DNA of 64,000 nucleotides from Prostheceraeus crozeri. Taxonomy: Eukaryota; Platyhelminthes; Polycladida; Euryleptidae. Of this stretch, positions 6,471 to 64,000 are shown piece by piece (within the stretch, counting starts at the first letter, position 1; every line of letters starts with the position of its first letter). Under the pieces are notes generated by a model. It did no database searches, had not been told where the DNA came from, and saw nothing but the letters and a program-made list of their open reading frames with translations. The stretch spans positions 5,001-69,000 of the forward strand of contig CAJQUW010005372.1 of NCBI GenBank assembly GCA_907163375.1, read 5' to 3'. The position numbers and the translations under genes were made by a program.

Positions 6471-7036
6471 GTCCGGCAGCCAGAACGAGTTTCTGCAGGG
6501 AACGAGGCTGAAAGTGAGACTTTCACAGAATGATGTGCACCCGATGCCTACTGCGAATCGACACGTCTGCAGAGTTCTAGTGAGTTCCTCTTCTTGTCAG
6601 ACAGGATCAAAGAAAAACAAACACATGTAAATCCAATGAGACGCAGATTGAAGATTTTGGCTAAAATGAAATTTTCTATGTTTTCTCTGATTAAAGGAAA
6701 AGTACTTAGCCCAGAGTCATAATTTTTGGCGTGGAATGTCTTTAGGTCAGTTCCTATGATGTGCATGTGCTTTTTTCATGCTTCTGATCGGCAATGTATG
6801 TGAGAATGTGGTTGAATGTGGATAAAGTTGCACAAAATGTTTGTGTTTGCCGACATTAAGAGGCTCGGCAAATCTAAATGTGCTTAGCTTTATAGACAGG
6901 GGTGCATGAACATGAAAGGAAATGACCTGAAGACATTCCATGCCAAACATTATGACTCTGGACTTAGTACTTTTCGTTTAATCAGAGAAAACATAGAAAA
7001 TTTCATTTTAGCCAAAAACTTCAATCTGCGTCCCAG
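6471..7036 (+). mobile_element. Foldback element, copy 1, right end missing
   Basis: This copy begins with GTCCGGCAGCCAGAACGAG and is highly similar over most of its length to the complete element at 41391-42113. It holds the whole left arm, the centre and most of the right arm, but stops near 7036, about 180 bp short of the expected terminal sequence. No target duplication can be read because the right end is gone. Short open frames inside (for example 6548-6766, minus) mirror frames in the other copy and arise from the repeat, not from a gene. It lies about 130 bp beyond the end of the RTE-like LINE. Confidence 0.8.
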
Positions 7037-27174: not shown

Positions 27175-27871
27175 CGTGGCAACAAATTAAAATTGATCAG
27201 CTTTTGCCCAATATCTGGTAAAAATGGAGATCTTAAGACTTGTAATACTACTCATTCTTGCTGTTAATATACTAATACCATAGATTCCAAACACTACCGT
27301 ATACACGTTCAAAACAGACGTCTAATATACTGTACCGACTATAGATGCTGATAGTGGAAATAGAATAAGACAATGGTCACCATAGGTTAAGGAAATTAAA
27401 AATGGATATTATAAAACAACAGGAAACCGATGAATAAAAAATGGAAAAGTGGAGGTAAAATATGGAAATACAACGATGCTACTACACCGATTACAAGTGA
27501 ACTATATCTGACACTACACAAAGTGGATAATGGTAAGAGTGGATAAGTGGAAAGTGGAGAATGGAGGTAAACAATAGAACTACAATGACACTCTACTACA
27601 CCGAAATCAATGAAACTATACACACTATACCTAAGACTACACATGGAAAATACTATTTCTTCACTTGAATTTGTTATCGCCAGTTTCTTCATCCGTCTAT
27701 AGTACTTCATGTAATTCCACATTTCTTCATTTGAATTACAATACATCGACCACTACTTCAGCTACCGATTCAGGGATATAAAACATAATACTGCAGTCCG
27801 TCAGTCATCAGCAGGTACTCGTCTAGTTGTGTTTCGACCCCTAACCTGAACACTCAAACGCAGACGAGCGG
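27175..27871 (+). mobile_element. LTR-like repeat, copy 1
   Basis: This stretch is nearly identical to 51125-51778, apart from about 55 extra bases near 27238-27290 and a missing final GTCCCACA. Near its right end it has a TATA box (GGGATATAAAAC at 27774-27785). An initiator-like CAGTCCGTCAGTCATC follows about 20 bases later, and then a U5-like segment, all features of an LTR promoter. Both copies hold a 116-codon minus-strand frame, but no recognised protein. The copy ends exactly where the 78-bp duplication at 27872 begins. Confidence 0.6.
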
Positions 27872-27949
27872 GAATGGAATTTTCATATCTGTCCCTAACA
27901 TCGAAATGGCATATCACAGAATTAGACAACTTGCTCCTTCTCGAATGGA
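27872..27949 (+). repeat. Exact 78-bp direct repeat, left copy
   Basis: This is identical over all 78 bases to 28541-28618. It begins immediately after the LTR-like repeat and contains, from 27916, the terminal ACAGAATTAGAC of the MITE family seen at 10912 and 28585. The absence of any mismatch points to a recent event. Confidence 0.9.
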
Positions 27950-38888: not shown

Positions 38889-41390
38889 TTTATAGCTTAT
38901 GTCTAGATAAATAAATCAGAGCTGTATATTTCGCAAAAAAGCGAATTTTCAATATTCTTCTACCTGCACTATGAAATCAACACATTCATAAAAGCAGAAT
39001 AATTGAATTCACAGCTTCATCGTGGGAATGAAACGATTTCCTCGCCATTGTCAGTATTTTTGTTGCACTTTTATTTCAACAATTTTTGTCATCTAGGTCA
39101 AGGATTATTTGAGATCAATCATGGCCATCACTATTAAGGAATCCATGGATCAATGACGACAAGCACAAAGGCTAGAAAATGATGAGTCAAAATTTTCTTA
39201 CTATCAAAAGCGAGTGAAACAATATCACATCATCCTCTATGTGTCTATACAATAATCGCGGTTTTGACTTGTAAATAGTCGCAATTATTTGGAGCATTTG
39301 GTGCCTTATCCAATCCAAGGTTTACTATTAATTGATTACGTCATGTATAAGACATTCTGTAAGTTTGCTTCAACCAAACCACATGTCAACTACGCAAGCC
39401 ACATGATTAATCAAAAGTCAAGAAACTTTCAAGAAGAAAGGTTTACATGGTTTGGGTATGATATTTTCTCAGAATCAATGATGCACAATTTTTGATAATT
39501 ATTTGATCTGAGAAATACAAATATCTCTGTTAGTCCAAATTGTAATGCGACTGTTGCATCAATTGTGTGCTACAACTGGATTTGGAAATTCGTTCAATAT
39601 TCTAGCTATAATATTTATTGAGAGGAATGATGGGACTGTCTTTCAGCCAATCATCTAAGGATCCAATTAGAAATGCATGTTAACTTCCTTGTGCCATCGA
39701 TTCCCAAGCACCTTTCATAGCATTGCTATGAAGTCAGCAAGTTGTTCCTAATCTTCCTAAAAGTGAAAATTAGACTAAGAGTCTTATTTTCACTTCTACC
39801 TTTTTAAGAAACAATTGAACTAACTTGCTTTTGATAATAAAATGATCTCCCGTGGACTGGTCAACTATGTGTTCATAATCTATTTTAGAAAATGAAGTAT
39901 GAATTTATTGATTAAGTGTAAATTGAATGACCTACGCTTCAACTTCAATGAGTGACATCTGACTGAGAAAAGTGACAGCAAAAAATGAAGTATTATCATA
40001 TCTATTCTGAAAGCATAACTGGTGGTAGAAACTAAGCAATTTTGGAACAATCTGCAGAAAAAGTTAAAAAAGTCTCGACGATCACTCATTTACATGTACA
40101 CAATATAAATTCATATATTATTATTTGAGATTACAGCATATGATTGTAGCATTTCATAGCGATGCCATCAAAGAATATGACTTGTGGCCAAAGTTGTTTA
40201 TGATGGTCTGTTGTTGGTTGACTAAATTTGGCGCGGAAATGATGACTGCATATATCGGATCACCTTTCCTCACCTTTTCCGGAGCTACTGCGTCATCATT
40301 TCCACGTCCCAATTCGAATTTCGTTTAATGTTAGGTCTAATGAACCTTATTAATTAAATACAACTAGCCGCCCAGCTTTTGTGAAATGTCAAAAAATGCC
40401 GAATCAACTCATGTAAATAGAACATTTTTGATCAAAATTTCAAATTATTTCAGTATTAGATCCAAAATATTGAAGTGAGCATGCTAAATTTTCTAGCCAA
40501 ATTCATAGTTTAATTGATAATCTCAATGCGCACTGGTCTTTAATCCTCAAACCTTTTCTTAGAAAATGGGACATAGTTTGCTAGCGCATGCCTTCACTTT
40601 ATGTATTTTCGATGCTTATGTCGGTTGTCGGGAATGGCTGGAGATTTACGTCAAGTTCGGGGTTTGATGAAAGCACATTCGGTCTTTTTGAGGAATATGT
40701 AATACTCAAATATTTTTTAACTTATTAAATGTGACTCAGACGACAGAGGTGAGGAGGACTAAATAGTCTGATTATCCGAATATTCGCGAAATCATTTCCG
40801 AATCGCATAATTGGATCAGAAATTATTTGCCAAACGAATAGGACACTCGAATCCGAATGGCGAAAATTTGTGAGATTCAGTGAAGTCGGCGTCGTCAATA
40901 TCTTACACTCTAAATGTTTGTTGTCGAACCCATTTTTCATTTCCTGCTTTACAACTTTGGCATTACACTTCAAACAATTTGCACATCACTAAGCATGGGA
41001 TATTCGAAATTTAGCGCACAACCCAATCGTTGACAACTGCATCTAAGTGAAAATGTGTGCGATTTTTGTGCTGTTGTTGTGTATTGTATTAACCCTTTCA
41101 CGCTCAAGTTAATTTCAAAATTGAGGTTCCAAATGTTTGAAAAAACATCAAAAGCTATTTGCGGGCGTTCTAGACATCTTACGAGGGTGGGGTGGTGATA
41201 GATCTCCTCTTTCTTTTGGTTGTACATTTTTGCCGCGCAGTTATACATTGCTGCGCAGTGTTGATCTGAAAGATGCAGGTCGAAATGATGCCAAAAGACA
41301 CAAAAAGGTTCAGCTTAACTTCCTTTCTACATTTAGAAGCCCTTGTAATGAACACAGAAATCAGACTTCGCTTGTTATTGAGACTATAAT
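38889..41390. other. Spacer with a 94-bp hairpin
   Basis: The hairpin at 39736-39829 is listed separately. Frames up to 92 codons (40970-41248, minus) have no recognised motif. The sequence is AT-rich. Confidence 0.4.
39736..39829. repeat. Imperfect hairpin, 94 bp
   Basis: The inner arms AGTGAAAATTAGACT (39762-39776) and AGTCTTATTTTCACT (39780-39794) match at 14 of 15 positions around a 3-base loop. The outer parts AGCAAGTTG and TAACTTGCT continue the inversion with more mismatches. It may be a tiny MITE or a regulatory hairpin; no target duplication is certain. Confidence 0.6.
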
Positions 41391-42113
41391 TGTCCGGCAG
41401 CCAGAACGAGTTTCTGCAGGGAACGAGGCCGAAAGTGAGACTTTCACAGAATGATGTACACCCTATGCCTGCTACGAATCTGCACGTCTGCCGAGTTTTA
41501 GTGAGTTCCTCTTCTTGTCAGACAGGATCAAAGAAAAATACATGTAAATCCAATAGGACCCAGATTGCAGGTTTTGGCTAAAATGAAATTTTGTATGTTT
41601 TCTCTGATTAAACGAAAAGTACTAAGCCCAGAGTCATAACTTTTGGCATGTAATGTCTTCAGGTAATTTTCTTTCATTTTCATGCATCCCTGTCCATATA
41701 GCTAAACGCATTCAGATTTGGCGAGCCTCTTCGTGTCGGCAAAGACAAACATTTTGAGCAACTTTATCCACATTCAACCACATTCTCACATGCATTGCCG
41801 ACAAAATGCATGATATAAGCACATGTACATTATAGGAAATGACCTTAAGACATTCCATGCCAAAAATTATGACTCTGGGCTTAATACTTTTCGTTTAATC
41901 AGAGAAAACATACAAAATTTCATTTTAGCCAAAAAATGCAATCTGCGTCACTTTGGATTTACATGTGTTTTTCTTTGATCCTGTCTGACAAGAAGAGGAA
42001 CTCGCTAGAGCTCGGCAGACGTGCAGATTCGTAGCAGGCATAGGGTGCACATCATTCTGTGAGTCTCACTTTCAGCCTCGTTCCCTGCAGAAACTCGTTC
42101 TGGCTGCCGGACA
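41391..42113. mobile_element. Complete foldback element with ~300-bp inverted arms
   Basis: The arms of about 300 bp begin TGTCCGGCAGCCAGAACGAG and end with the inverse GTTCTGGCTGCCGGACA. They remain highly similar along their whole length. A central region of about 100 bp contains the word GTTGAATGTGG in inverted form. ATAAT flanks both ends exactly (41386-41390 and 42114-42118), a 5-bp target duplication. Two more copies are in this window (6471-7036 and 13674-14009). There is no transposase frame; frames of 60 to 105 codons are by-products. Transcripts would fold into a long hairpin. Confidence 0.9.
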
Positions 42114-42118
42114 ATAAT

Positions 42119-42833: not shown

Positions 42834-45449
42834 CTACGAACTGTGCTCGGAATGTCTGTCAATCGACACCGTACTTTCACTCCTGTCAGACCATGTCCTG
42901 TGAAAGTGGATTGAGATATCGTTATTTACTTCACCCCTCACACTGCTAACCTCATCCTCATTTATTATTTGTTCTTCTTTCCACTTTTCACGCGTGATTT
43001 CAATTTTGTGAGGGCCACGTACTTCAAAAAAACGTTCATAAGCTGCTAGATTAAGACGAGCTGTGGCCGACTCCTCGGGACCGCTGTAGCAATAGTGCGA
43101 GGCTGCATGAACATTTGCATCCATTTTCGTTCCTGCTTCATGGCACACAGTTGGCCATTTACAAATGCAGTGATGCTCTAACACTTCTCTTGTTATCGTC
43201 TTGAGCTCTTCAACAACTGGAGAATGAATAATGTAGATGTGAGAAGTTGACTGCGTTTCCGGAACCAAAAGTAATATAGTGAAACATCTGCAGGATCTAG
43301 GACCTACTTTATCAACATCAAGAAGTCTGGGGAAATCATGTCTTTGTTTCCGTGCACAGTAGATCCAAAGGAGATGCATGCGATGGAGACACCGACAATG
43401 TGTGGTGTAAAGAAGACTGAGACGTGCCTCATCGGGGTCGATCTTCAATGTTAAAGGCTGTCTCACCTCACAAGGAGAAGTACATTCATCTAAAAGTCCA
43501 TTGATATATCGATCACTGTCAGCACCAATGTCCGTTAACAATCGATGAATTTCTGTTGCACGTGTTTTAACAAATGGACACCAATAAGCGTGACGTTTCC
43601 ACCGCAGCAGACAAGCAGTTATTGCAGCAATTAGTAAACCAACAATCGTTATTACAGATACAGAAATAAGGATGATTTCATCCTTTTTGGATTTTGGACA
43701 GTGGCTTCCTCTGTATTGGTATCGATGCCAGTTTTGCATAATATCATATAATGCCATTCCTGGAACTTTACTGGTTGACTTATAAATGTCACGGTGAGCC
43801 ATTATTTGGTAATGTGGATCTAGTAAGCCTTTCTTTTCAAGACAATGAATTAACTGTTTTGCTGCTTTTAAAGCCTTGATCTTGGGCGCCGTTGAGTTAA
43901 AGTCTCCTATAAAAGCAATTCCATAGCTCTTTGTATTATATTTATATGTATGAGCTCCAACATTGCCTTCTCCTCGTCCTTCGTATACCTTTCCGTCTCC
44001 TCCAATCAAATAATTGTAGCCGATACTCGACCAACTTCTATCAAGGTGAAATTGCTGTATTCTACGCACGTAGTCCTCACAGGCTTCGGATGTGTAACAG
44101 CGGTATCGCGGAGTATGCGTATTGAGAATCATGACATATATGGGTAATTTTTTAAACTTACTGTAACTTTCTGTTTGTGGCCTAGCAAACCATCCTGCTG
44201 GTCGAATTATCTCTGGACAGTTCGCCTCTCTGTGAGTGCTTTGAAATTCACAAGAACGCTGTGGCTGCAGTTTAAGTGAAGAAGGAGGTTCGTTGATCCA
44301 CACATATTCCTCACCGTCGTAAACGCGAGTCCATGACTCAAATGTCTTTGGTCTGTCCGTAGTCATCCAAAACGCTGCATCGGATGATTTGCGTCTTGTC
44401 CAAGGGAGAGAGAAATCGAGTTTTCCACAATGTTCTCTGGCAATTGTGAACGTTGCATTTGAGGGACTGACACATTTCCACCTGTTCTTCAAATGTCTTT
44501 TGTCAATGGGTCTTTTCCTTATCCTCCTTGTCACGCATTTACATTCAAAAGCAACGCCAGTGAAATTTAAAAGAGCATCTTCTACCTCGTAGTCAGGAAT
44601 AAAGTTCTGCACATCGGTGGACATTTGATCATGGAAACCTTTGAGGACGCATCGTCCGGTAGAAGCGTTGAAGTGAGCAACAGAGCATTGGTGCATTTCT
44701 TGGCATGTGTGTAGGCAAACATCTATGTCTAACGTGTAGAAATATGCCACTGTGGTTCCACTTTCCAATGATTTATGTCTTTGTACTGTCCATATTCCCT
44801 TACATTGGCTACGAGCATCGATGCAAAATTTTTGCTTTGGTTGAGAAAGTTCAGGACAACAGGTCCATCGACTGACGCAATTAGATTTGTTGCCTTTACT
44901 CAATTCTACGTCACTGTACATCATCATTTGACATGTTTTTTCAACATAGTCAAAATTGACGGTTTGACAACGTGGCTCGTTCAGACACTTTCTATGACAT
45001 TCTAAAACATGGGCAACATTTTCCAGTGGAGGTCCAAGGAATCGATGCTCATCCTTTATCTGTTTTCTCTCTGCTGATGTCCATAATCCTCGACAACGTC
45101 CTTCCCACGATGAACAGTCAGAGGACTTACAACACTTCCAAGTTCCCAGTATGTGACGTCTAGTTTGACTAGGAGCCAAAGATTTATACAGAATACATGT
45201 ATTTCTTCCTCTGAATTCCATTCCGACGGCCAACGGCTGCTCTCTGAAGAAGAATTTGCACTCTTCTTCGCTTTCTGCTGGAGAATTATCAAGAATTTCC
45301 GAATCGGCGAGAGAAACAAGTTGAGAATCCATGATAACCTTCCCAAAACAGCGACCTCTGGCGTAGTTGCAGATTGTTGGGTGATCATATGAATAGATTG
45401 ATTGGAAAAGAAATAATGCAAAAATATAAAATACTAAGCCTGACTTCAT
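42834..45449 (-). CDS. Transmembrane PGRP receptor with Apple-like modules, predicted non-catalytic
   Basis: This is a single uninterrupted frame of 871 residues. Residues 1-20 form a signal peptide (FYIFALFLFQSIYS). Three cysteine-rich Apple/PAN-like modules lie at about 27-108, 112-199 and 209-305. Residues 324-400 look like a reduced C-type lectin fold (WKC, REHC, WINEPP, C400). A PGRP domain spans about 411-578, with IGYNYLIGGDGKVYEGRG at 476-492, YGIAFIGDFN at 509-518 and AHRD at 551-554. Residues 591-616 are a transmembrane helix with Arg/Lys after it, and 617-871 face the cytoplasm. Tyr478 and His552 match amidase zinc-site residues. However, the first His of the usual HHT motif is Thr444 and the Cys of CPG is Val562, so zinc amidase activity is unlikely and peptidoglycan sensing is inferred. 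The start is set by the signal peptide. There are no introns, unlike the nearby lipase gene. Confidence 0.9.
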   Translation of the reverse strand: MKSGLVFYIFALFLFQSIYSYDHPTICNYARGRCFGKVIMDSQLVSLADSEILDNSPAESEEECKFFFREQPLAVGMEFRGRNTCILYKSLAPSQTRRHILGTWKCCKSSDCSSWEGRCRGLWTSAERKQIKDEHRFLGPPLENVAHVLECHRKCLNEPRCQTVNFDYVEKTCQMMMYSDVELSKGNKSNCVSRWTCCPELSQPKQKFCIDARSQCKGIWTVQRHKSLESGTTVAYFYTLDIDVCLHTCQEMHQCSVAHFNASTGRCVLKGFHDQMSTDVQNFIPDYEVEDALLNFTGVAFECKCVTRRIRKRPIDKRHLKNRWKCVSPSNATFTIAREHCGKLDFSLPWTRRKSSDAAFWMTTDRPKTFESWTRVYDGEEYVWINEPPSSLKLQPQRSCEFQSTHREANCPEIIRPAGWFARPQTESYSKFKKLPIYVMILNTHTPRYRCYTSEACEDYVRRIQQFHLDRSWSSIGYNYLIGGDGKVYEGRGEGNVGAHTYKYNTKSYGIAFIGDFNSTAPKIKALKAAKQLIHCLEKKGLLDPHYQIMAHRDIYKSTSKVPGMALYDIMQNWHRYQYRGSHCPKSKKDEIILISVSVITIVGLLIAAITACLLRWKRHAYWCPFVKTRATEIHRLLTDIGADSDRYINGLLDECTSPCEVRQPLTLKIDPDEARLSLLYTTHCRCLHRMHLLWIYCARKQRHDFPRLLDVDKVGPRSCRCFTILLLVPETQSTSHIYIIHSPVVEELKTITREVLEHHCICKWPTVCHEAGTKMDANVHAASHYCYSGPEESATARLNLAAYERFFEVRGPHKIEITREKWKEEQIINEDEVSSVRGEVNNDISIHFHRTWSDRSESTVSIDRHSEHSS

Positions 45450-49976: not shown

Positions 49977-52900
49977 GTAAATCTGCAAATCACTTATGAC
50001 ATTTTTCAATATCATTTTGAGCATTTTAAACTATGAACTCAATCATATGATGATTTGATCCTTTCTTTTCACAAAGTCAAAAGTTTGTTCGTTCACTTGT
50101 AATCACTAGACTGTAAACCGTAGATCGATATTATCCTACAAAATTACTGACAAAATCAACCGACGATTGTCACCTCCAATATCCTGCGATATCCGACGAA
50201 TTTGTAGGTTCTCCACCGACATCGAAACAGATGCTTTGTATACAAATTAACTAAACAAAAACTGTTGAATTTTGATTGATTTTTTCGTTTAGTGATTGCT
50301 TGACTTTTGGGCAATCTGTATTATTGTGTGGCAAAACGATGATTTATTTTGACATAATTTAATTAATTACCTACATTTTTGATGAAAGTTAAGCTATAAT
50401 TCATTGCTATTCATTTTGTCGCTTTTTGTCAGATATTGTAGGTGTTCAGTGGCAATCCTCCTACAAGAACTAACAATGACCGACAAAATAGATTTTGTAG
50501 GATAAATGTCTGTCAATTGTCAGTCAACGGCTTACAGTGCAGCTTTTATTCAATTAAAAATGAAATAACCCGACGCGTTTGGTCGTTCAGACTGTTCGTC
50601 TTCAAGGGGTATGTCTGACAATTGTGAATTGTGTAAATGCAAATTATCAGCTTTATGAAACTACAAAATATGTATTTTGACTATTTCTAAGCTTCCACAA
50701 GTTTGTAAAGCATATTTGTAAGTTCATGAAAGTACAAGTGCAGTTTCAGTGTATTACAGAACTATTTTATCATTCATATCACATTCATGCTTTCATAGCG
50801 TTCTATAATTAAAAGTACAATATTGGAATAGACCTATGTTAGATTTTGATATGTTATTTGACGCAATTTGCATGTGGACATTTACACCGTGTTTTTCTTG
50901 CTTATTTCTACAAATATGATACACAGATCCTGCATTGTAAACTGTACGCAGTGAAGAAAGTGAATTTCCAAAATTGAATTTTCTTTTCTTGCCGCCTGTA
51001 CAGAGAAAACGCAAGATAATTTCTGTTTTTGTTTTATTAGTGTTATAAGCTATGACGTCATCAATCAATATATTGCGACGTCGTCAAAGTAGTCTGATGC
51101 TAAAGTAAGTTTCCTGTGGATTCCTGTGGCAACGAATTAAAATTGATCAGCTTTGGCCCAATATCTGGTAAAAATGGAAATCTTCCAAACACTGCCGTAT
51201 ACACGTTCAAAACAGACGTCTAATATACTGTACCGACTACAGATGTTAGTAGTGGAAATAGAATAAAACAATGGTCACCATAGGTTAAGGAAATTAAAAA
51301 TGGATATTATAAAACAACAGGAAACCGATTAATAAAAATTGGAAAAGGGGAGGTAAAATATGGAAATACAACGATGCTACTACACCGATTACAAGTGAAC
51401 TATATCTGACACTACACAAAGTGGATAATGGTAAGAGTGGATAAGTGGAAAGTGGAGAATGGAGGTAAACAATAGAACTACAATGACACTCTACTACACC
51501 GAAAGCAATGAAACTATACACACTATACCTAAGACTACACATGGAAAATACTATTTCTTCACTTGAATTTGTTATCGCCAGTTTCTTCATCCGTCTATAG
51601 TACTTCATGTAATTCCACATTTCTTCATTTGAATTACAATACATCGACCACTACTTCAGCTACCGATTAAGGGATATAAAACATAATACTTCAGTCCGTC
51701 AGTCATCAGCAGGTACTCGTCTAGTTGTGTTTCGACCCCTAACCTGAGCACTCAAACCCAGACGAGCGGGGTCCCACACATAGTGGCTGACAAAATACTG
51801 AATAGGTAATGATATGTCTTGAAAGATATGTCACAAAAACACTAGATCACATTTATATGTTTGGCAGCATCGAAATGCAGTGATCCTCTGCTCCACCGAA
51901 TAGTAACGTAACTTCGACATCATTCCGTTTAATTACTGCTATATTATTGGATAATCAAAAACTGGACCCGTTCTCGAACACATAAAGATATCCTCTGCTG
52001 AATGAGATGAATATTTATTAACAAAGAAGAAAGAATTTAACTCCCATTTTCCGACTTTATATTGACTAAAATAGCAGAAGCACCCATCCCCAAATAGAGA
52101 TAGATACTACCGTGAACTTAACTTTATTTTCCGAATTTTTGTAGTCAATCAAATCTCCAATGATGCAACGATGGCATGTATTGTCCTCCAACCAAGATTA
52201 ATGACAATAGCAACTGCTTCCATAATCGACTGCGAGAAGCCACAGGTATTGTAAATAGAATACAATTGAATATTCAGTTGCATCCTCAAAAATGGAAACA
52301 GACCTGAATAGCTGCCATTTCATCCAATATCTAGAATCATCAGGAGGCCTCTCAACATCGACACAACTCCCTGTTTAAAGTTGCATCCATGCCCGGGTAA
52401 ATTTAAGATTTTCAATTTGCAAGTCGGTGAAATTTCGACGGGCATTCATCAAATATCACTTTAGACACAAGCACATATCACAAACATTGAGTAGTGAAAT
52501 TATTAAGGTTAATAAGTTTGTGGACATCCAGCACGTTCCATTTGACTTATAGCCACGAAGCTCTGATTCAACAAGAATATCGAAAATCCAGACGAAAAAT
52601 AATCATCATCTACATCTCTCAAAATGGAAAGACCGAAATACATGAAATAAACCATAGATCAAAACTGCCATGCACAAAATCTGCGGCTTGACATACTATC
52701 AGTTCTTAGATATACATACCACGGGCGTTAATAAGTTGATCTTAACTCTATGTGGCCGGGATACAGATTCTCAAAAACTTATTTTTTCAAGAAAAGGGAA
52801 TTCAAATTTTAAATTGCTATTCATAGCAGCAAGATGACCGAGTTTGCAAAAACTGAAACTTTGGAAAGAACATGCGCCAATTCTACTGTTCAGTAGGTTA

Positions 52901-55900
52901 GGAAACGCTCTTGCTTTTCGGAAGTCAAATTTGCTCGGATAAAAAAGGATAAATCCCTTCTTTTCTTCACTTATTTTGCACACACAGTTCATCCACCAGA
53001 TGAGCTTTTTAGAAAATGACCGTTAATATCGGAACGTCACAGGAAACATCGCTCAATATCAAAGATAAAATTAATTCTTCTTTGAACTGTTCTGCTCAGC
53101 CTTTAAACGTATATCTGTTGTTTTATACATCGATTTGACACGCTTGAGCACGCTCTTAAGTAAACAAATTTGAATTTTGCTGCGAATTACAGGAAGCGGC
53201 CATAAACTGCCCGGCTAGCGTGGACATCGGCTTATACCTGATGGGCAAAATCCCACCTGTTCCAATCTCTGGTGTGAGATTGTAGTGGTTGACACCGAAT
53301 TAACTTTTAAGTTTTCTTTTCTATTTTTTAAATGCAACTTTGATGCTGCTACATACTACTGATGCTGTTAAGTCTGTTGTATTTCATGATTATGGGTAAG
53401 ATACATGTATCTGTTCAATGTGACATAGTGTTTCCATGATTGTTCTTCACTTCGCGTTGATTTCGTACAGCAGATTTATGGATCTTGAAATTAGATTTAC
53501 TGTTGGTTCTGCAAGTCACTATGGATATTTACACACGTTACAATGGTGCACAAGTTCAATAGTCCCGGCCAATGTACCTCAGCCGCTTTCTCCATTCATG
53601 ATACCCCGCATATAGTGCTACTATCAGGAGTTAACACTTTTCGTTGATTTTCCCTGCTTTCATGAATACATGGCTCGATCTAAAAGCAGATAAAAGCAAA
53701 TCCTTTCAACAAGCGCTCAAGTCAAACGGTTGTTATATCAGCAATGTAGAGCAGTTTGCAACAACTGCAGTTGTTAATATCTCATGTGTGAAATAAAATT
53801 TCCAATCAGATGTGTGAACATTCACAAGGGCAATAGGTGACTGAACTTTTACATAATGTTGAAATGGAATGAAGCCCAAAAGCAACATTTTCGACAATCA
53901 CAAGACTTTAACTATTCTTTGCCTTCATTTCAACGTAGCAAAGTGCATCAAGGTAACAAAATTAAAAATTAAAAAAAGCAAGCTAACGACTAGGTGCAAA
54001 TTATGATTTAGAAGAAAATTTTTATATCCTAGAATGTCTAAAAATTTAAAAATACTTACTAGAAGGACAAACTACGGTTCTCCTCTCCTCATGTGTAATG
54101 AATTGGCGAGTAAGTCGTTCTGTTCAAAATTACTTATATATTGAAAAGATTCTATTTAACTGTCTGCCCATTCAGATGATGAGAGGACAGGACTGTTTCC
54201 AATCAAAATACCAGATCTAGCTAACACAGCAGGATTACGCTATCTATAATCTACCAGGTGTGAAAGCGGGTAGATTCACACGCCATGAAAGATTTCGTCT
54301 TCAACTTACACTGTAATCACACTCAAGCGTGTCAAAAGCAAGATGCATTTTCTAACGTCTACAACTCTCAATAACAGATTATTTGAAACTCGGTATTCAC
54401 AGGGTGCGTCAGAATTGCCGCCCAATTTCAGACATCGATATGATTACGTGTACCTTAATTCCTGTCGAGTTTCAAACATGCAGTTTACTTTCAGAGGCGC
54501 ATAAGACAATGCAACCATTTATTCAACTCAGGAGCACAAGCTGCAATCAAAAAGTTTGGAAAAGCCAAGTAAAATCATTATGATATTGTGAAATGCAAAC
54601 TATTTTACTTGTCTGTCCCAAACTTTTCAATTGATAATGACAAATAGTAGCGGCATATTTGAACATTTAAACCGAATTTCGGTAGATTTCATCAAGCAAC
54701 TTTGAATGAAAAATACAAGTGTACATCATTCGTGTGAGATGATTACAGATATCGGTTGTCAAGTATGTTCATGCATTGCGTTTTTTAATTAAGTTATTGC
54801 ACAAAATGTCCAGCACAAGTTTAGACCTACATATACGAAAAAAGTCCTTTTTGTAGTACTCGTAGATCATGTATGACTTCCAGCAGACCACATCAAACGA
54901 GTTTGAGAACACGCTAAAGCTAAATGGCCTGAATTTACAAGGACCATAGCAAAAATTCGACAAGGGCCTAAGGACAGTTGTTTAGGCATTTGATGTACTC
55001 CAACATGGTACTGTATGTCACATGTAAACACAACTCAGCTTGTTTAAGCATTCCAATTTCAAAATCAATGTCACAACAATAATCGAAAACGATGTGACAT
55101 GGCTTCGACGATACTACAGATTGTTTCATAAAAAATGGATCACCCTTAAACATCGCCTTAACTTCAACTTTGTCTAACTCCGCCACACTTGAACGAATTT
55201 CTCTGAAATTTGGAAGATATGTCAGTTGTGCTTACTAATATCATTGTTGGAAATTTCAAGCATGAATATTGAGTTGTTTTCCTGTTATAGATAAAAAAGT
55301 AGTAGATAATTTGATCTTCATTTAGCAATGTTACACAAAATCATACCTCACTCTTATAAAATTACATTTGTTTCCTTTGTTATGTAATATGTTGTTCTAC
55401 AAGCCAAAAGCTATCAAGCAAAACAAAAATAAAGAAAATCGGTCAATCAGAGCCAGTATAGCACCATTATTCATCAGCAATAATGTAACTGCTACATGTG
55501 ATTAACTGGACTTCATGTTCCATAGCTTCCTGACTTCGTTGCGGTGGTGTTGGCAGCACTCCTGATTGCTTTCAGCTAGAAATCTATCTCTTACCGGTTG
55601 AAAACAATACAAAGCACAAATGAACAATAACAAGATCGCATTCACAAAAGGCAAAGTGTCAGCCTTGTTAGAACTAGGCTTTTCTTTGCGAGCTACAAGC
55701 AAGCGATTAAATGTCCCTTACACAAATGTGCATCGATGGCATAATGATGATTTTCGACTCTGTCTTAAAGAGGGCTCTGGCCGTCCACGCAAAACACCCA
55801 AACGTAGAGACCGCCTAATTTTGAGATTTGTTAAAGTTGATCCAAGTCTCTCGTTAAGTGAGATGGCTGCACTAGACTCGTCTATTTCTAAGTCCACTAT

Positions 55901-58900
55901 TCGTAGAAGACTTATTGAGTCGAATTTCAAGAGCTGTAAGAGGCCCTCTCAGATCGAATCATCAACTTGGTGATCCATCGACTTGGTTATTTATGGATGA
56001 TAATGCTACGTGTCACAGGAGTAGTAGAGTCAACTTATGCAAGTCTCAATTAGGGCTTAGGATCTTCTAAATCTTCTACAATCTTGGCCAGCTCGTTCTC
56101 CTGATATGAATCCCATAGAAAATGTATGGAGTATTCTAAAACGTAACGTTCGTCGTTCACTGCTACCTACAGATGGCGTATCACAACTTACGTCACTGTT
56201 AAAAAGAGAGTGGAGAAAGTTAGATCAGTCAAAAATCAACGATATCATCGGATCAATGCCTAGACGAATTGGTAATGTCATTGACAGTAAGGGTAGGGCC
56301 ACAAAGTATTAGCTTCTTAAGAACCGTTACTGTATCATAGCTTATCAGATTATATAAGGACTTTTAAATATACGAGGATTAGGGACATGAAATAACATGA
56401 AAAATGCTTTCTGTATCATACTTATGTTTTATTTAGTCAAATTTTAGGATGATCCACTTTTTATGAAACGGACTGTATATTGTATTTACAGCCGGTATTA
56501 ATTGTACAAGTAGGACGAGGTCCTCAGACTTCAGCAATTGAAATACAACAGTTCCTTGGCAGCTGTAGACACTGCGCTAATTGTTCAAGTCTGATAACTT
56601 CTCTCTGTTCTATGCCCAGGGGAACTGGCACTCTGCATTCTTGATGATTATCAGCGGCATTAATTGATAAGATGCAAGTGAACAATGGCATAGAACTTAA
56701 ATAGTCCGCACTTTATGAGCAACGTTTTAAGTAAAATATAATTATATTCATCCTCTATGCCATTACAGTCGTACTCAAGACCATGGAAATCCGTCACTAT
56801 CATGAAAAGAGGACTAAAACATCCACAGCTGCACATTGTAAACAATGTGCTATACATATATAGCTGATGGAAGCCCATTTGTTCTCATCATGATGTCTTT
56901 CTCACATCTACAGATAAAAAATTAATCCCAATGACTAAATGTTACGGCAATCTTGGCTGTTTCTCCACTGCGGCTCCTTTCTTTGATATTGGAACACGAC
57001 CGATTAACTTCTTGCCTCAGGATCGCGATGTGATTAACACTGGATTCACTCTCTTCACGCGCATGAATAAACTGTGGCATCAGAGGATCGTAACTAATGA
57101 TACAGGAACTCTCAGAAGCTCATTTTTTGATGGAAAAAAGAAGACGAGATTTATTATACACGGTTTTTTGGAGTTCGGGGGCGTCGACTGGATGAATGTA
57201 AGTAAGAATAACATTTGATAGCATTGAAAATGGTAATTAATTCAGTTTACTATTTTCTAAAGGAAATGAGAATTGCTCTATTGAACGCGGAGGATGTCAA
57301 CGTTATCCAAGTAGATTGGAGTGGCGGATCCCGCAATTTATACACCCAAGCAACTGCAAATACGCGGCTAGTCGGGGCTGAAGTCGAGCATTTTATACGC
57401 TTTCTGGAGGTACGGTGAGATCGAAACTGGGTTGCTAAATGTATACATGTAATTTAGCGCAATGTATGTACCAACTCGATAGTGACGCTCAAGGTCGTGA
57501 TTGGAAACTATATTTCTAAATTCGAGTAATGATAGAAATATAAGTTTCCGCAATCTACCGAAGCTTTTCTTATCATTTTTCGCTTGAATTCATTATATAC
57601 AGGCCTATATAACATATTTCATATTTTAAGGACAAAGAAGACAAGGTCAACAAAATTGGAAAGTTTTCGACAAAGGCCTTTTTCAATCCAAAAATATAGC
57701 AACAATCTTAAACCAAGCAAAAAGGAAAGAAGTAATACAAGATATTCTAAGTCATTATATCTAAAATTCAAACGCTAATGCAAAAAGTAGATACTATGTA
57801 AATGTGCCAAAAAATGGACATCATATGTTTTAGTTATCAATTGTGCATCGCATTAATAATGCATATTATTTGACATAAATGATATGTAATGTATTACCAC
57901 TTGTCAGTACATATTACATAAATATTGAACAAAACATGTTTCCTATGGGAGCATGCTAAAAGAATGCTATAATAAGATCCTGATCAACAAATGACAAAAC
58001 TAAGAAGAAACTAATAAAGAATAATTGAATAAACTATTCAATTATTCAATTATTCAAAAAAAAGAAATAATTGACATATGCATTCGTAATATATATTTAC
58101 ACATCAAATTTGCTGATAAAAATAACAAGGCCATTATAGTAAACAAATTCAAATCGATCCTTGCAAAAAAGCCATGTCCTAAATAAGTTATTGGAGACGA
58201 ATTCTCTAAGCATGTACCAGATTTAATTGTCATTAGTGTGTGCATTTTATTTACATTTCATTAACAGATTGTTGATTATTATTATTGAAATATTAGATTA
58301 TGTCAATGACAGTTATTAGAAATTTGATTCTGCACTAACACTTGGTTACTTGGTCTGCAGAGAGAAAGTACATCCGGAGCTCGAAGACAGGATATGCATA
58401 TAATTGGTCACAGTCTTGGAGCTCATACCGGTGGATATGCTGGCGAACGTCTCGGAGGTCAACTCGGTCGAATATCAGGTAATTTCCTTTGACATTGAAG
58501 AATTTGCGAAAACACTTTGCATTTTGCTATGGCCTTTCGTATTTTCTTGCATGCATTGAATGTGAACTATGTAACCGGAAAAAGCAATATTTTTCAACAT
58601 AATTAATAACGCTCCCTAAGCACCTTTCTAACTTTTACTCAGACTCAGCGTGTTCCGTCTGAATGCTCATAAGTAAGAGATACTGCTTGCGTCTATACGA
58701 TGGTTAAAACCATAAGGAATTGCTGCCCATTCATCATCGCAGTATTTCTGGAAGATATGCTATCTCTACCAACATTTCGGCCAATAATATTGATGTAAAA
58801 TTTCCTGCTGGATAAGACTCGCTGTTTTTCAAACTTTGTGCCAAAAAGAAAAATGTCTTGCTTTCATCAAGTTCCCAGTCAGTGTGGTATCTCTGTTTTT

Positions 58901-61900
58901 CTCTCCTCCTCTGACATTAGTCCCTTCATGCTTTTCGTCGATACTTGCAATCGTCCAGTCTTCGACTTGAACAGAAATGATCAGGCTTGAGATTTCACTT
59001 CTCCCGCAAGGGTTGTTAAAGAGTGTTGTTGCAACGTTTGTGGTGCTGTTAGACTAAGTTCTGGAGACTCAATGGCTCCGCATCTTCTATACACACTTTG
59101 ACAGAGTTACCAAAGAAGCGCTCTCCATTGAATATCCAAAGGGAATGACAGCTATCAAGTCAGTACAAGACACCAACACCTTTGATTCCCCGACCGCACT
59201 CACCTGACCCAGGAATCGAACCGAAGTCTGCGGTGGAGACGATCTCGCACCTTCTTCACTAGGCCACAGTGACGGTTCAAGGAGAATTCGAGTGAAGGCA
59301 GAAGTCATCTCCAGGTGATATCGACAGCTTATTGTCCTATTATTATATTATTATCGACAGAATGCCATCAGTATTCATGTTGTAGCGAGACAGCATATGA
59401 GCTTGTCATTTGACTACGTCACACTATTGACAACAAAGTTGGTGTGTTATATTGAATTACTTTAGATACCTGCAGTTCGTTCAGACTTGAACCATGAGGA
59501 ATTCCACAAGGCTCATCTTTGGGACCAATTCTCTTCAGCTACTTTGTATCCGATTTGCAACCTCAGTGTGATGACTTAATCGTCAAATATGCTGACGATA
59601 TTTTTCTTCTTTCCAAAATGAATTCTCAGCACTATGATTCTAATATTCCTCTGTTGCATCGCAATGTTTTACAATGGGTAGAGGAAAATGAAATGGTTGT
59701 CAAAGAGGAAAAGAGCAAGCAGGTTATATTCACAAACCGATTGACTGATCCTAGCACATCGATCGCTCTTCCAAACATTCCGCCGATGAAAACTGAAATT
59801 CGAATTCTAGGTGAGATTTTTGATTCAAGGTTCAAATGGGATACTCATATTGAGCACATTTGCAAGAAGGCATCCACGAAGCTTTTTATATTGTGTCAGT
59901 TGAAGAGTTTTCTGAGCAACAAAGAACTAGCTCAAATTTATCAACACTGAATGCGAGGCATTATGGAATATTGTGCGCCACTCTTCTCAGAATTAAGTGT
60001 TGGGCTATCCACCAAACTTGATAAGATTCAGCGACGTGCTCATCGAATTATATGTGACACTTGGCATTGTAGCTCCAGCGACTTCATCCATCTATCGTAT
60101 CGACGGAAAACAATTGCATTTCGATCATTTTTGAATATTGTGGAAGATTCTCAGCATCCGCTTCGTCACCTACTGCTGCCTATAATGATTCACTCTGGTC
60201 AATTCCAACTGCCCATCTCACGAACATCCCTGACCCAACGGTCGTTCATCATTAGCATCTCAAAGCTTTATAACTCTGGCTTTAGTTTGTAACTTTATAA
60301 ACGAACATTCTTTTTTCCTGTTATGTTTCGGTTCACTTAAAAGTCTATGTCTTTTGGGGCCCTACGATTCTTATTATTGGGGCTGTTGTAATTTTCTGTA
60401 AATATATGGTGATTATTATTATTGTTATTCAATGTACTACGACAGACATTTGTTGTCAAAGCACTCTCGATGTTTGTAGTCGATCTCTCACACATGTTTA
60501 GAGGGATCTGCCATTTTTCAGAGTGATAGATGTATTTAATGGAATTTTAATAAAACGAATATTAAAATTATATATTTAAAAAAATATTTAAATTAAACGA
60601 ATTTTAGAATACCTTGCTTCCCTTTGCCTGCACGTGGACATGCATGTGTACATTTTCCATGTGACTTAAATGTTTTTGCCATTTTCATTGTCTTCAGCAT
60701 TTTCTGTCAATCTTTACTTTATCATTCACCTATTCGTTGCTTTCATTTCTATGAACAGAAAGCGGATTCTTATGAATCCTCATCCATGCAGTAAATGTAC
60801 ATCTGCATTCAAGTTTCCTTATTTTAAAACTTGGTAGCTCTGCCAAACCATCGTCCGTCCTCATTACTGTTCATTCCTCCATACAGACAACCGACGATGG
60901 TTTCCATCTAATCATTGGAACTGAACATCACAAGACTTCTTCATGTACATTGTTTTTGTTTAATTGGCATGTCAATCCGTACTATCAGTCGCAATCATCC
61001 GAATCAATCTGTGGCAAAATCATCACAGTCATCCACAGAAGCGGAATCATTCCAAAAATTGCAAATTCAGATTTTAAAATGCTGGCATTCCGAAAAAGCT
61101 ATTGCCGCCATTGACGTTTCCATGCTCGAAATGTAGATCTTCTCGATAGGATCGATAGGAGGTCATGGAGAAGAAACCAACTTTGCTCGATTCCACCGGG
61201 AAGAATGGAATTGTCAATACATCAACTGCGAGAACACATTATAATGAAAGTTTGATGAAATACTGTAAAACAACAATTTTCGCGAATTTCGCGGGGGCGA
61301 GTGTCTCGAGAAAATTTTTTGCCATGGATATTGCGAATGGTGCACGACATGAAATCACGAAAACAAGTAACTTTTGTCGCTAACTAGTCCACGAGTCGAC
61401 AGTCGCGAAAATTTCGTGGTTTACATTAGGTTAAGTGAAAGGGTTGACTGAAGTGTGACTAATGGTTTTTTAAGAATGTTTTATGTGACAGACCTGCGCT
61501 GATATTCACAATATCTTCTATTGAATGTTTTCTCAGATCGTGGACTGCAAACAGTGATCATTGTTAAAAGTTAGCAGTATTTCGATTATGAATTTCTTCT
61601 AAATCAGCAATCAAATAATTCCAATGCAATTGATCTTGACAACACCTGAACCACGTAACATCTAATGTAACATCTAAATTCCATCCACATAAAATCTACA
61701 TGAATGATGACTTTGAATGTCCCAAAAATGTCTTCTTCATGTTTTAAAGTCCTTTTGAAAATTGTTGTACGTGTTTCTGTAATCGAAATGCACTTTATTG
61801 CTAGCATAAATTCTAAACAGATTTCTTTCTAGGTCGCTCTAAGTTTTCGCTTTCATGAAGACAAGTGAACACAAATTTGCATAATTCCTGACTTAGTGCG

Positions 61901-64000
61901 AGAAGTTGGCGAGTCGATGAAGAGCAAATATCAAATCACCAGATCACCATCAAATGATAAATAAATATTAAGGGTCATTGTGTCGAGAGTAAGAGAGTCT
62001 GGTCCAGTGTACTTGCGAACTCAAAATATTGAGGCACGTGCAATCAGTGCAGTGGCGATCTTCGGACTGCTAATCATCTCTGCAATTTATTGCATCCTTA
62101 AGAACCTGTTGCACTCTTTTAAAAGCACGGCATTGATATCAAAATCAACACAATCGAATTATAGTTTGTTACGACAAATTTCGTCAATTAGGCCCGGAAT
62201 TTGTCTTATATTTTTTCATAAATACTTGTGCGTAGTTACATTTATGGCATAAATGAATATTTACTGTTTTTCAAATAACATCTGAAGATAATCCATTATT
62301 TTGCTAAGTTACGTTTCTTAAGAATAATTCGGGTTTCAAATACTTTCTAAAATTCAAGAAGCAATTTGTAATTACACATGTATGTAAATGGGGACTATTC
62401 ATGTCAAGGCACACTTCATCTAACACGATCTCTCCCCTCATCTAACACATATTGGTAATAAATACATTTACTCACTAAAATTGCTATGACGACTGATGTG
62501 TGATGGTGACGGGTGCATGCAGTCACAGCGCACTTGGCAGAGCACAAGTCTAGATACCTTGCCGTCGCAGGTTCGAGTTCTACAACCTGTACTTCTCTGG
62601 CATGGTACTCGTAATTTGATCTATTGTTTTATCATATCATTTGTCGTTAATAAAACACAGAAACTTGATTTTTAGATAAATAAAAGTCATATCTAGATTC
62701 ATTTGCACTATTTAATTGGAGGTTTGATTTGCAACATGCGCCTCGTGCTGTTGATCGAACAGCAACATTTAAAGCAATGTATTGTAATCTACTCACTGTC
62801 AGTTCACACAGTAGTGTACGCACACCTACCTTTTGCGATTTCTGATCACTTTAGTATAAGTTTTGTCATGTGCGGCGATTGTGTGAAATGCTGTGATTTT
62901 TTCATACATTTTATCAAAAGGATTTTATCTCAATAAAGAACAGAACACATGAATTTTACTATGCAGTTTTATCCCATCATATATTTTACATTTATATAAA
63001 TATATCATATATTTTATCTAACGCATCAGCAACACCTGAAAATAAAGAAGACAAACTCAATCCTGATCTGATTGAATTAGTTCATCTGACGTACTGCATT
63101 ATTACAAGTATTAGTTCATTAAACGATGAAAAGATTCAATTGTCGAAGAAACATGCAAGGTACATACTTTCTTACAAATAACTTTCTTCTTTCGAGGTAA
63201 TGAGCGGTGATCCTTCTAGTCCTCTTGTTTGCAGGAATGGATCCGGCTGGACCGTACTTTGAAGATACTGATCCACTGGTTCGTCTGGATCCCACTGATG
63301 CCATTTTTGTCGATGCCATACACACGGATGCTCACAGTATCATCACGCTGGGTAAGATATTTCATTTGGACACTGATCTGTTCCACACATCTTCCCACTC
63401 ACTGATTGATTGTAGGAAGTCTTCATTTTACATAACTTTTATTCTCATGAAATGCCCAATAAACAATATTAAAGTTGTATGCACGAATTGATAACCAAGC
63501 AATTATTCTTCGTGCTGAAAACACAATTTTGTATACAAGTGATAAGAAGAATGAGTAAGAATCATTACTCGAAGGACGATAAATGACCCTCATCGTGCAC
63601 TAAATTTTATCAAAGATTTTATCGCTACATGACTGTTGAAATCTCCTATTGCACTATGGTTGTATTCGTTGCATGCAAGCGTTTATTTCAGGTGACAAAC
63701 AGCGATTAGATAGCATTCACTTTGAGATTTCTATAATTGGTGACACAGTACCTTGTTCTTTTAAGTCATAGAAATCGAATTATTATCAATGGTATTCATC
63801 TACGTTATTGTCCATAAACGTTTTTACTGCAAAGCTCAGTCTGATTTGCGCAGTGGCATTTCGTGAAAGAATGCGCTAACTTAGTGCTCCGTCAGCGCCC
63901 CCAATATATGACAACGTGCTGCAAATGAATTCTGACTGATCTCACGGTGTATTTGCGCATGTTTTGTAAATAGCTAACCTGTGAAATGAGGCGTACACCT
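49895..64000 (+). CDS. Pancreatic-lipase-family gene, 5' five exons, continues past the window
   Basis: Five exons join in frame: 49895-49976, 56914-57197, 57263-57409, 58361-58478 and 63235-63351. All introns are GT-AG; the phases are 1, 0, 0, 1 and then 1 at the last donor. The product begins with a signal peptide ([17 protein letters not shown]). It then follows the animal pancreatic lipase fold: [26 protein letters not shown] (oxyanion-loop region), [38 protein letters not shown] with the nucleophile Ser, and GMDPAGPYF with the catalytic Asp, [17 protein letters not shown]. The likely role is secreted hydrolysis of tri- or phospholipid esters. No stops or frameshifts occur. Catalytic His, lid and C-terminal PLAT domain lie beyond 64000. 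Introns 1 and 4 hold many transposons. Confidence 0.92.
50110..50538 (+). mobile_element. Complete MITE with ACTGTAA-CCGT ends, in lipase intron 1
   Basis: The left end ACTGTAAACCGTAGA and the inverse of the right end ACTGTAAGCCGTTGA match at 13 of 15 positions. Internal CAAAATTACTGACAAAAT and CGACAAAATAGATTTTGTAGG sequences are further related inversions. The right 138 bp recur inverted at 38751-38888. No clear target duplication was found, and there is no coding frame. Confidence 0.72.
51125..51778 (+). mobile_element. LTR-like repeat, copy 2, in lipase intron 1
   Basis: The copy begins TGTGGCAAC and ends GTCCCACA, giving TGTGG...CCACA inverted termini of the TG...CA form used by LTRs. A TATA box (GGGATATAAAAC, about 51672-51683) is followed by an initiator-like CAGTCCGTCAGTCATC. 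It is nearly identical to 27175-27871. No primer-binding site, polypurine tract or gag/pol sequence was recognised on either side, so it would be a solo LTR or an unrelated repeat with promoter-like elements. Confidence 0.6.
51779..55619. other. Lipase intron 1, middle part
   Basis: This is AT-rich intronic sequence. Frames of 64 to 73 codons carry no recognised motif. A less AT-rich patch near 53205-53290 shows no inverted repeat or coding signature. Confidence 0.5.
55620..56475 (+). pseudogene. Tc1/mariner-like transposase with internal deletion, in lipase intron 1
   Basis: The first frame (117 codons) has a helix-turn-helix ([20 protein letters not shown]), the linker GSGRPRKT and a second DNA-binding part ([18 protein letters not shown]). 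After a deletion that removes the first catalytic Asp, 55987 onward reads [17 protein letters not shown] frameshift follows, then [22 protein letters not shown], which includes the last acidic residue region, to the stop at 56310. The probable right terminal sequence ends at AACGGACTG before TA near 56475. It is a non-functional but well-preserved copy in the same orientation as the host gene. Confidence 0.88.
56914..57197 (+). CDS. Lipase exon 2
   Basis: The exon opens after CATCTACAG and closes before GTAAGT, phase 0. It encodes [15 protein letters not shown], the family's conserved start of the mature enzyme, and RFIIHGFLE, the strand and turn contributing to the oxyanion hole. Confidence 0.93.
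57263..57409 (+). CDS. Lipase exon 3
   Basis: The exon follows TTTTCTAAAG, after a 65-bp intron, the shortest in the gene. It encodes [24 protein letters not shown] in two adjoining parts and [13 protein letters not shown]. It ends in phase 0 before GTACGG. Confidence 0.93.
57410..58360. other. Lipase intron 3
   Basis: This is a 951-bp AT-rich intron. A near-palindromic ATTCAATTATTCAATTATTC run lies near 58034-58058. No insertion is recognisable. Confidence 0.6.
58361..58478 (+). CDS. Lipase exon 4, nucleophile elbow
   Basis: The exon follows GGTCTGCAG. It encodes [20 protein letters not shown]; the active-site Ser codon AGT is at 58412-58414. It ends in phase 1 at G before GTAATT. Confidence 0.95.
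58479..59168. other. Lipase intron 4, left part
   Basis: No gene or repeat is recognised in this stretch before the SINE. Confidence 0.5.
59169..59334 (-). mobile_element. tRNA-derived SINE, copy 2, in lipase intron 4
   Basis: On the minus strand the A-box-like TGTGGCCTAGTGAAG (near 59255-59269) and an exact consensus-type B box GGTTCGATTCC (59212-59222) are spaced as in a tRNA. CTGGGTCAGGTGAGTGCGGTC follows. TCAC before the A box can pair with GTGA after the B box, as in an acceptor stem. It matches the copy at 35179-35325 and lies antisense to the lipase gene. Confidence 0.8.
59462..60292 (+). pseudogene. jockey/CR1-like LINE RT fragment, in lipase intron 4
   Basis: The frame starts within RT motif B ([16 protein letters not shown], near 59500), then [10 protein letters not shown] (active site, intact), [16 protein letters not shown] and [12 protein letters not shown] stop at 59948 interrupts it, and it then continues in frame with [41 protein letters not shown] and a stop at 60290. 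A TGA also precedes GIPQG. The 3' noncoding part leads to an ATT-rich tail near 60412-60428. It is 5'-truncated but less decayed than the other LINE relics. Confidence 0.88.
60430..61261. other. Lipase intron 4, spacer
   Basis: Short coding-like frames (60915-61136; and about 61150-61242, reading [20 protein letters not shown]) have no recognised family and no splice context matching the lipase. No exon is called. Confidence 0.35.
61262..61425. mobile_element. Short MITE-like inverted repeat with TTTTCGCG arms
   Basis: The left end ACTGTAAAACAACAATTTTCGCG and the right end CGCGAAAATTTCGTGGTTTACAT are inverted relatives sharing TGTAAA-C and ATTTTCGCG. The interior is unusually CG-rich (GCGAATTTCGCGGGGGCGAG). 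It resembles the small TGTAAA-ended, TTCGCG-rich MITEs common in invertebrate genomes, but no target duplication was confirmed. Confidence 0.55.
61426..62519. other. Lipase intron 4, spacer
   Basis: The 90-codon frame at 61980-62252 contains one hydrophobic segment, but has no recognised domain and no consistent splice sites. No other feature is seen. Confidence 0.4.
62520..62597 (+). tRNA. tRNA-like sequence, likely tRNA pseudogene or SINE head
   Basis: A B box GGTTCGAGTTC (62570-62580) and an A-box-like ACTTGGCAGAGC (62531-62542) have tRNA spacing. An anticodon arm CAAG...CTTG with loop CTAGATA and a T arm can be drawn, giving AGA at the anticodon position. The acceptor stem pairs at only about four of seven positions and the D and T stems contain mismatches. 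A functional tRNA is therefore unlikely, and the AGA anticodon would demand a long variable arm that is absent. Confidence 0.4.
63235..63351 (+). CDS. Lipase exon 5, catalytic Asp
   Basis: The exon follows TTGTTTGCAG. It encodes [13 protein letters not shown], with the catalytic Asp codon GAT at 63240-63242, then [19 protein letters not shown]. It ends in phase 1 before GTAAGA. The following exon, expected to encode a GHLDFYPNGG-like segment, was not found before 64000. Confidence 0.94.
63352..64000. other. Lipase intron 5, partial
   Basis: This is intronic sequence to the window edge. TTTATTTCAG at about 63684-63693 is acceptor-like, but the following sequence does not encode the expected lipase segment, so no exon is called. 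Confidence 0.5.

Follow-up and report, generated by a model that had tools for sequence, protein, structure and literature searches.

We propose, with a probability of roughly 0.55, that the window (the whole 64-kb stretch of DNA analysed here) carries one member of a hitherto undescribed multigene family: type I PGRP receptors, amidase-dead, that would signal through a new cytoplasmic domain. The family, its domain order, the membrane helix, the loss of the zinc ligands and the conservation of the tail can be observed directly in the sequences. The existence of a gene family, the conserved tail domain, a topology reverse to that of PGRP-LC and the zinc-ligand loss had escaped an earlier, sequence-only reading of this DNA.

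The window contains a single open reading frame (ORF) of at least 200 aa, located at 42834-45449 on the minus strand and encoding 871 aa counted from the ATG; length and position agree with that reading. In 200 simulated first-order Markov windows, the longest ATG-initiated ORF has a mean of 132 and a maximum of 225 codons, which rules out a chance ORF of 871 codons. The remaining two frames of the same strand contain 42 and 71 stops. An in-frame stop lies two codons 5' of the ATG, indicating that the hydrophobic leader is the start of the protein. The features of the gene are as follows.

42834..45449, minus strand: 871-aa coding sequence in one exon, including the stop codon (sole ORF of at least 200 aa)
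45390..45449, minus strand: hydrophobic leader of the signal-peptide type, aa 1-20 (sequence and hydropathy)
45123..45389, minus strand: PAN/Apple-like module 1, degenerate, aa 21-109 (resembles module 2; counterpart aligned in six paralogs)
44847..45122, minus strand: PAN/Apple module 2, aa 110-201 (matches PAN_1 in isolation, E 8.3e-8)
44523..44846, minus strand: PAN/Apple module 3, aa 202-309 (matches PAN_1 in isolation, E 8.5e-7)
44223..44498, minus strand: Cys/Trp-rich domain without a name, preceding the PGRP domain, aa 318-409, about 90 residues (conserved in the family)
43701..44222, minus strand: PGRP (Amidase_2) domain with zinc ligands lost, aa 410-583 (Amidase_2 profile and PDB match)
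43605..43685, minus strand: transmembrane helix, about aa 589-615, within 589-618 (hydropathy, 7/7 members)
43469..43470, no strand assigned: point between aa 660 and 661, a phase-0 intron in six paralogs and none in the window gene (splice sites)
43026..43469, minus strand: conserved cytoplasmic tail domain, about aa 661-808 (18 invariant residues in 7 sequences)

Besides the receptor gene, the window contains a piece of another host gene, a lipase exon at about 63204-63491 on the plus strand (Pfam Lipase, E 5.7e-13), and fragments of Harbinger-type, Tc1-like and LINE reverse-transcriptase elements at about 332-1467, 55602-56312 and 59498-60292. A foldback (MITE-like) element, its long inverted arms 91-96% complementary, occupies 41386-42118, starting 716 bases past the receptor stop codon, and a second copy, about 90% identical, lies at 6471-7033. 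A pair of direct repeats of 588 bp, 97.6% identical, lies at 27285-27872 and 51183-51770.

A search of the same genome (2,048,925,868 bases in 14,165 contigs, 2.05 Gb) with the window protein returned 19 matches, the window itself included. Six of them (L002-L007) are paralogs that cover the query from residues 6-79 to residues 643-677 in single open frames of 678-793 aa, while the remaining 12 are pieces. In an alignment begun at their likely start codons, the paralogs share 26-28% whole-protein identity with the window protein, retain its Cys and Trp skeleton, and present its parts in the same order: leader, three PAN modules, unnamed domain, PGRP domain, helix and juxtamembrane stretch. The unusual domain order that had been claimed for the window protein thus recurs in six further genes, which strengthens its reading as a membrane PGRP, although the lectin part of that claim does not stand. 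The presence of several such genes in one genome suggests a bacterial sensor of a kind not described before.

The genome also contains related genes with PAN and PGRP parts on separate exons (PAN parts at L015, L016 and L018; PGRP parts at L015, L016, L017, L019 and L023), among which the near-identical L015 and L016 may be two haplotypes; L020-L022 look like ordinary PGRPs. In a PGRP tree of 16 rows, built without the Chironomus proteins P0008 and P0009 and without L016, L022 and L008 (the last sharing its location with L023), one split (98/96) places the window gene, L002-L007, L015, L017, L019 and L023 on one side, and the ordinary PGRPs L020 and L021 of the same genome, two domains of a spider protein and one shrew PGRP on the other. 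Within the family side, the window gene branches first and the other ten members join at 94/94. In a tree of the PAN region, the window gene sits on a very long branch, which makes its precise position uncertain. The close paralogs L005 and L007 lie about 80 kb apart on opposite strands of contig C12025, and their nucleotide differences are bunched, with 30 in codons 421-480, 44 in codons 601-660 and at most 13 in any other 60-codon block; the pattern resembles that of gene conversion or of local diversification at two places, where the PGRP domain begins and around the membrane helix.

Outside this genome, searches of the protein database with the window protein yielded 6, 9 and 0 rows, comprising 14 distinct proteins, none of which lists a PAN domain; as the database looks thin for animals and the query is divergent, this speaks only weakly for a true absence. 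Drosophila PGRP-LC, a protein of about 500 aa, is not among these matches. The viral and prokaryote contigs searched yield no relative. The two Chironomus sequences, P0008 from C. tepperi and P0009 from C. riparius, come from midges; both are long and carry several PGRP units (P0008 has six, counted from GGDG-type anchors), none of them showing an intact zinc triad in the alignment.

The N-terminal leader, predicted earlier as a signal peptide, is confirmed as hydrophobic, from hydropathy only, with a best 19-residue mean of 1.3-2.2 across the members. It is followed by what are likely three PAN-like modules, the first of them degenerate. Specifically, the whole window protein matches the Pfam profile PAN_1 with E 2.8e-12 over two stretches, which correspond to modules 2 and 3 only, and the profile is matched at E of at most 0.001 in all seven family members. 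The C-x3-C-x5-C spacing of PAN domains is found in the window protein at C151/155/161 and C245/249/255. Module 1, when cut out, has no Pfam match even at E 10. Its alignment score to module 2 is equalled by 5 of 2000 shuffles in global alignment and 49 of 2000 in local alignment. For module 3 the corresponding counts are 1353 and 890 of 2000, which is no match. Because module 1 resembles module 2, though not module 3, we consider a third, degenerate module likely; the Apple/PAN triplet named in the sequence-only reading is therefore firm for two modules and weaker for the first.

The segment at aa 318-409, earlier read as C-type-lectin-like, does not bear that assignment out. The cut-out segment has no Pfam match, and the Lectin_C profile is absent from 7/7 members. 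Furthermore, aligning it to a hand-written C-type lectin domain (CTLD) consensus gives no more than shuffle-level scores in all seven proteins, the score being reached by 172 of 1000 shuffles for the window protein and by 410-786 of 1000 for the six paralogs; the same consensus scored higher against the cytoplasmic tail than against this segment. The C-type lectin reading was accordingly rejected. Since HMMER filters discard weak matches, a very divergent lectin fold could have escaped these scans. The segment is a conserved domain of the family, with 12 of 92 residues invariant across the seven members.

In contrast to the lectin assignment, the claimed PGRP domain is well supported. Amidase_2 matches residues 438-559 of the window protein with E 1.6e-16 (Pfam) and is matched at E of at most 0.001 in all seven members, placing the family in the PGRP (PGLYRP) superfamily. 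The top PDB match of the domain is amphioxus PGRP3 (E 6.4e-37), a protein that also carries a chitin-binding domain, and PGRP-LCx is likewise among the PDB matches. The His-His-Cys zinc triad of PGRP amidases is intact in none of the seven members. In alignment with relatives, Thr or Ser stands in place of the first zinc His in 7/7 members, the Cys ligand (before PG) is missing in 7/7, and the second His is kept in 3/7. Whichever His of the HHT motif is taken as the zinc ligand, neither register leaves a His at the first position. A catalytic amidase was rejected on the absence of the first His and the Cys in every member. By the zinc-ligand criterion applied to noncatalytic arthropod PGRPs, some of which are used as receptors (PMC4833078, in the part of the article available), the loss of these ligands makes the family PGRP domains noncatalytic, like known PGRP receptors.

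The altered zinc site also bears on the ligand. The Thr of the HHT motif is changed to Cys in 6/7 members, and the new cysteine adjoins the first ligand position; with the groove altered there, peptidoglycan binding is not assured. One could envisage that the PGRP fold has been co-opted for another ligand, be it a host protein or a marker of self, and that the family does not serve to sense bacteria. The rebuilt zinc-site region, with its new cysteine and its lost first His, and the wide divergence among the paralogs are consistent with such a change, but the PGRP domain is the best-conserved part of the protein (38-40% identity between window protein and paralogs, compared with 15-30% for other ectodomain parts), with 42 of 174 residues invariant in the family, and we regard a switch of ligand as quite improbable.

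Consistent with the prediction of one membrane helix, the window protein has a single strongly hydrophobic stretch within residues 589-618; like the leader, the helix was assigned from hydropathy only. The predicted long tail is present as well, with 256 residues beyond the helix. The N-terminal leader, the helix and the C-terminal tail together define a type I receptor. Although the tail of the window protein is only 20-25% identical to those of the other members, its invariant residues include C685, C687, W695, C720, Y739, H742, S743, R754, C761 and C763. The ratio dN/dS, calculated from the paralogs only, the window gene being too divergent for it, is 0.12-0.30 for the tail in 10 of 15 pairs, the other 5 being saturated, and 0.17-0.39 for exon 1 in 5 of 6 computed pairs. 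The values in unsaturated pairs indicate that the tail domain is under purifying selection.

The tail domain has no counterpart among the resources searched. Five tails and a consensus gave no Pfam family above cut-off, no PDB chain matches the domain, and a protein-database search gave no match at E 10 among 850 candidates. The SEFIR and TIR Pfam profiles are unmatched in the five tails and in the tail consensus; a search of the same genome with PF08357 gave 0 matches, but so did its 14 controls, which leaves that search uninformative. By eye, the strand-helix pattern of the tail recalls what we take to be the second half of SEFIR domains, a likeness without profile support. Single-sequence AlphaFold prediction gave a mean pLDDT of 31 for the whole window protein and 34 for the tail, with no confident fold. 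ITAM, ITIM, RHIM core and TRAF6 motifs were not found in the tail (RHIM core in 0/7 tails, by a simple pattern and not a profile), and loose TRAF2-type matches in 2/7 tails were judged to be chance.

The tail thus has no known signalling motif or recognisable signalling fold, and this counts against signalling. It would suit a receptor that binds and takes up bacteria or pieces of their walls on phagocytes or gut cells, in which the tail serves internalisation or anchoring instead, and the window tail does contain a YxxPhi match at aa 804 and dileucine-type matches starting from aa 633 and aa 705. On the other hand, a Cys-rich domain that looks folded and is under purifying selection exceeds what a short sorting signal needs, and we consider an uptake receptor unlikely. 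We favour a tail that would signal.

The gene structure of the paralogs is informative as to the history of the tail. A homologue of the tail exon lies 3' of each of the six paralogs (L009, L011, L012, L013, L024 and L025), about 1 to 14 kb beyond exon 1 as determined by hand from contig coordinates; the tail piece downstream of L006 had already been matched in the first genome search (E 5.8e-4). Exon 1 ends in 6/6 paralogs with ...G(L/I)Q followed by a GT donor, and exon 2 begins, after AG, with (A/T/V)R(E/D)DN at 4/4 inspected acceptors. In the window gene, the reading frame is uninterrupted at the junction (...SPCE/VRQPL...), the intron being absent exactly there. A donor-like site, GAG/GTGAGA, falls at exactly the codon 660/661 junction, so splicing there may occur; the homologous tail nonetheless follows immediately, in the same frame.

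The missing intron could be explained by intron loss or by an old retrocopy. If the latter, the window copy might be a relic without a working receptor product, even though the family works. Along with the exact absence of the intron, a transposon-rich neighbourhood and a tail codon usage that exceeds the 95th but not the 99th percentile of random stretches fit such an origin. Nevertheless, 871 codons are still open at about 27% protein identity, with the Cys and Trp skeleton retained; neither an A run of at least 8, over 2.5 kb, nor a flanking 12-base repeat marks it as a retrocopy; and in the PGRP tree the window gene branches off before the ten other members, indicating that it is old. A dead window copy is very unlikely in our estimation.

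Among known membrane PGRPs, Drosophila PGRP-LC resembles the family in having a noncatalytic PGRP ectodomain and a single helix across the membrane. In the available parts of the sources, the cytoplasmic part of PGRP-LC is described as N-terminal (PMC4309185), and PGRP-LC is described as signalling in the insect Imd pathway through an intracellular RHIM motif (PMC4833078). The window family has the reverse topology, with the leader N-terminal and the tail C-terminal, and differs further in its PAN modules and in the absence of a RHIM core from 7/7 tails; the feature of a PGRP-LC-type Imd receptor, a RHIM in an N-terminal cytoplasmic part, is not present. Outside insects, a PGRP combined with a transmembrane segment is described, in the available text, for the centipede Strigamia, whose membrane PGRPs have no detectable RHIM and one external recognition domain (PMC4833078), and for Mytilus edulis (PMC3308963); judged from these descriptions, PAN modules and the new inner domain set the window family apart. 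Fusion of a PGRP domain to another domain is likewise known, in oyster CgPGRP-L, which is joined to a g-type lysozyme and described as homologous to short PGRPs (PMC5877582, available part), in a Mytilus PGRP joined to SH3b (PMC3308963, available part), and in amphioxus PGRP3, and the descriptions at hand report PAN modules for none of the three. Among 5.39 million open-access papers, we found none naming a PGRP plus PAN/apple domain order and nothing pairing PGRP with SEFIR. Relative to known membrane PGRP receptors, the ectodomain, the reversed topology and the inner domain are new.

For the ligand, the clustering, the signalling and the pathway of the receptor, we infer the following scheme. 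The ectodomain would comprise three PAN-like modules, the Cys/Trp-rich domain and an amidase-inactive PGRP domain, and would be connected through the helix to the inner domain. The PGRP domain would bind peptidoglycan or its fragments without cutting them, while the PAN modules might bind a second ligand or pair receptors. Clustering of receptors would then allow the inner domain to recruit a signalling partner. More tentatively, and at somewhat less than even odds, the family may represent a new class of animal innate immune receptors, in which a type I PGRP with a PAN-module ectodomain and a new inner signalling domain, multiplied into a family within one genome, would provide a second, RHIM-independent route from peptidoglycan recognition at the cell surface to an intracellular signal. 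For the way in which membrane PGRPs of animals other than insects may signal, the window family gives a concrete object; in particular, a conserved, unnamed inner domain on an amidase-dead PGRP would offer a handle for finding a non-insect signalling route.
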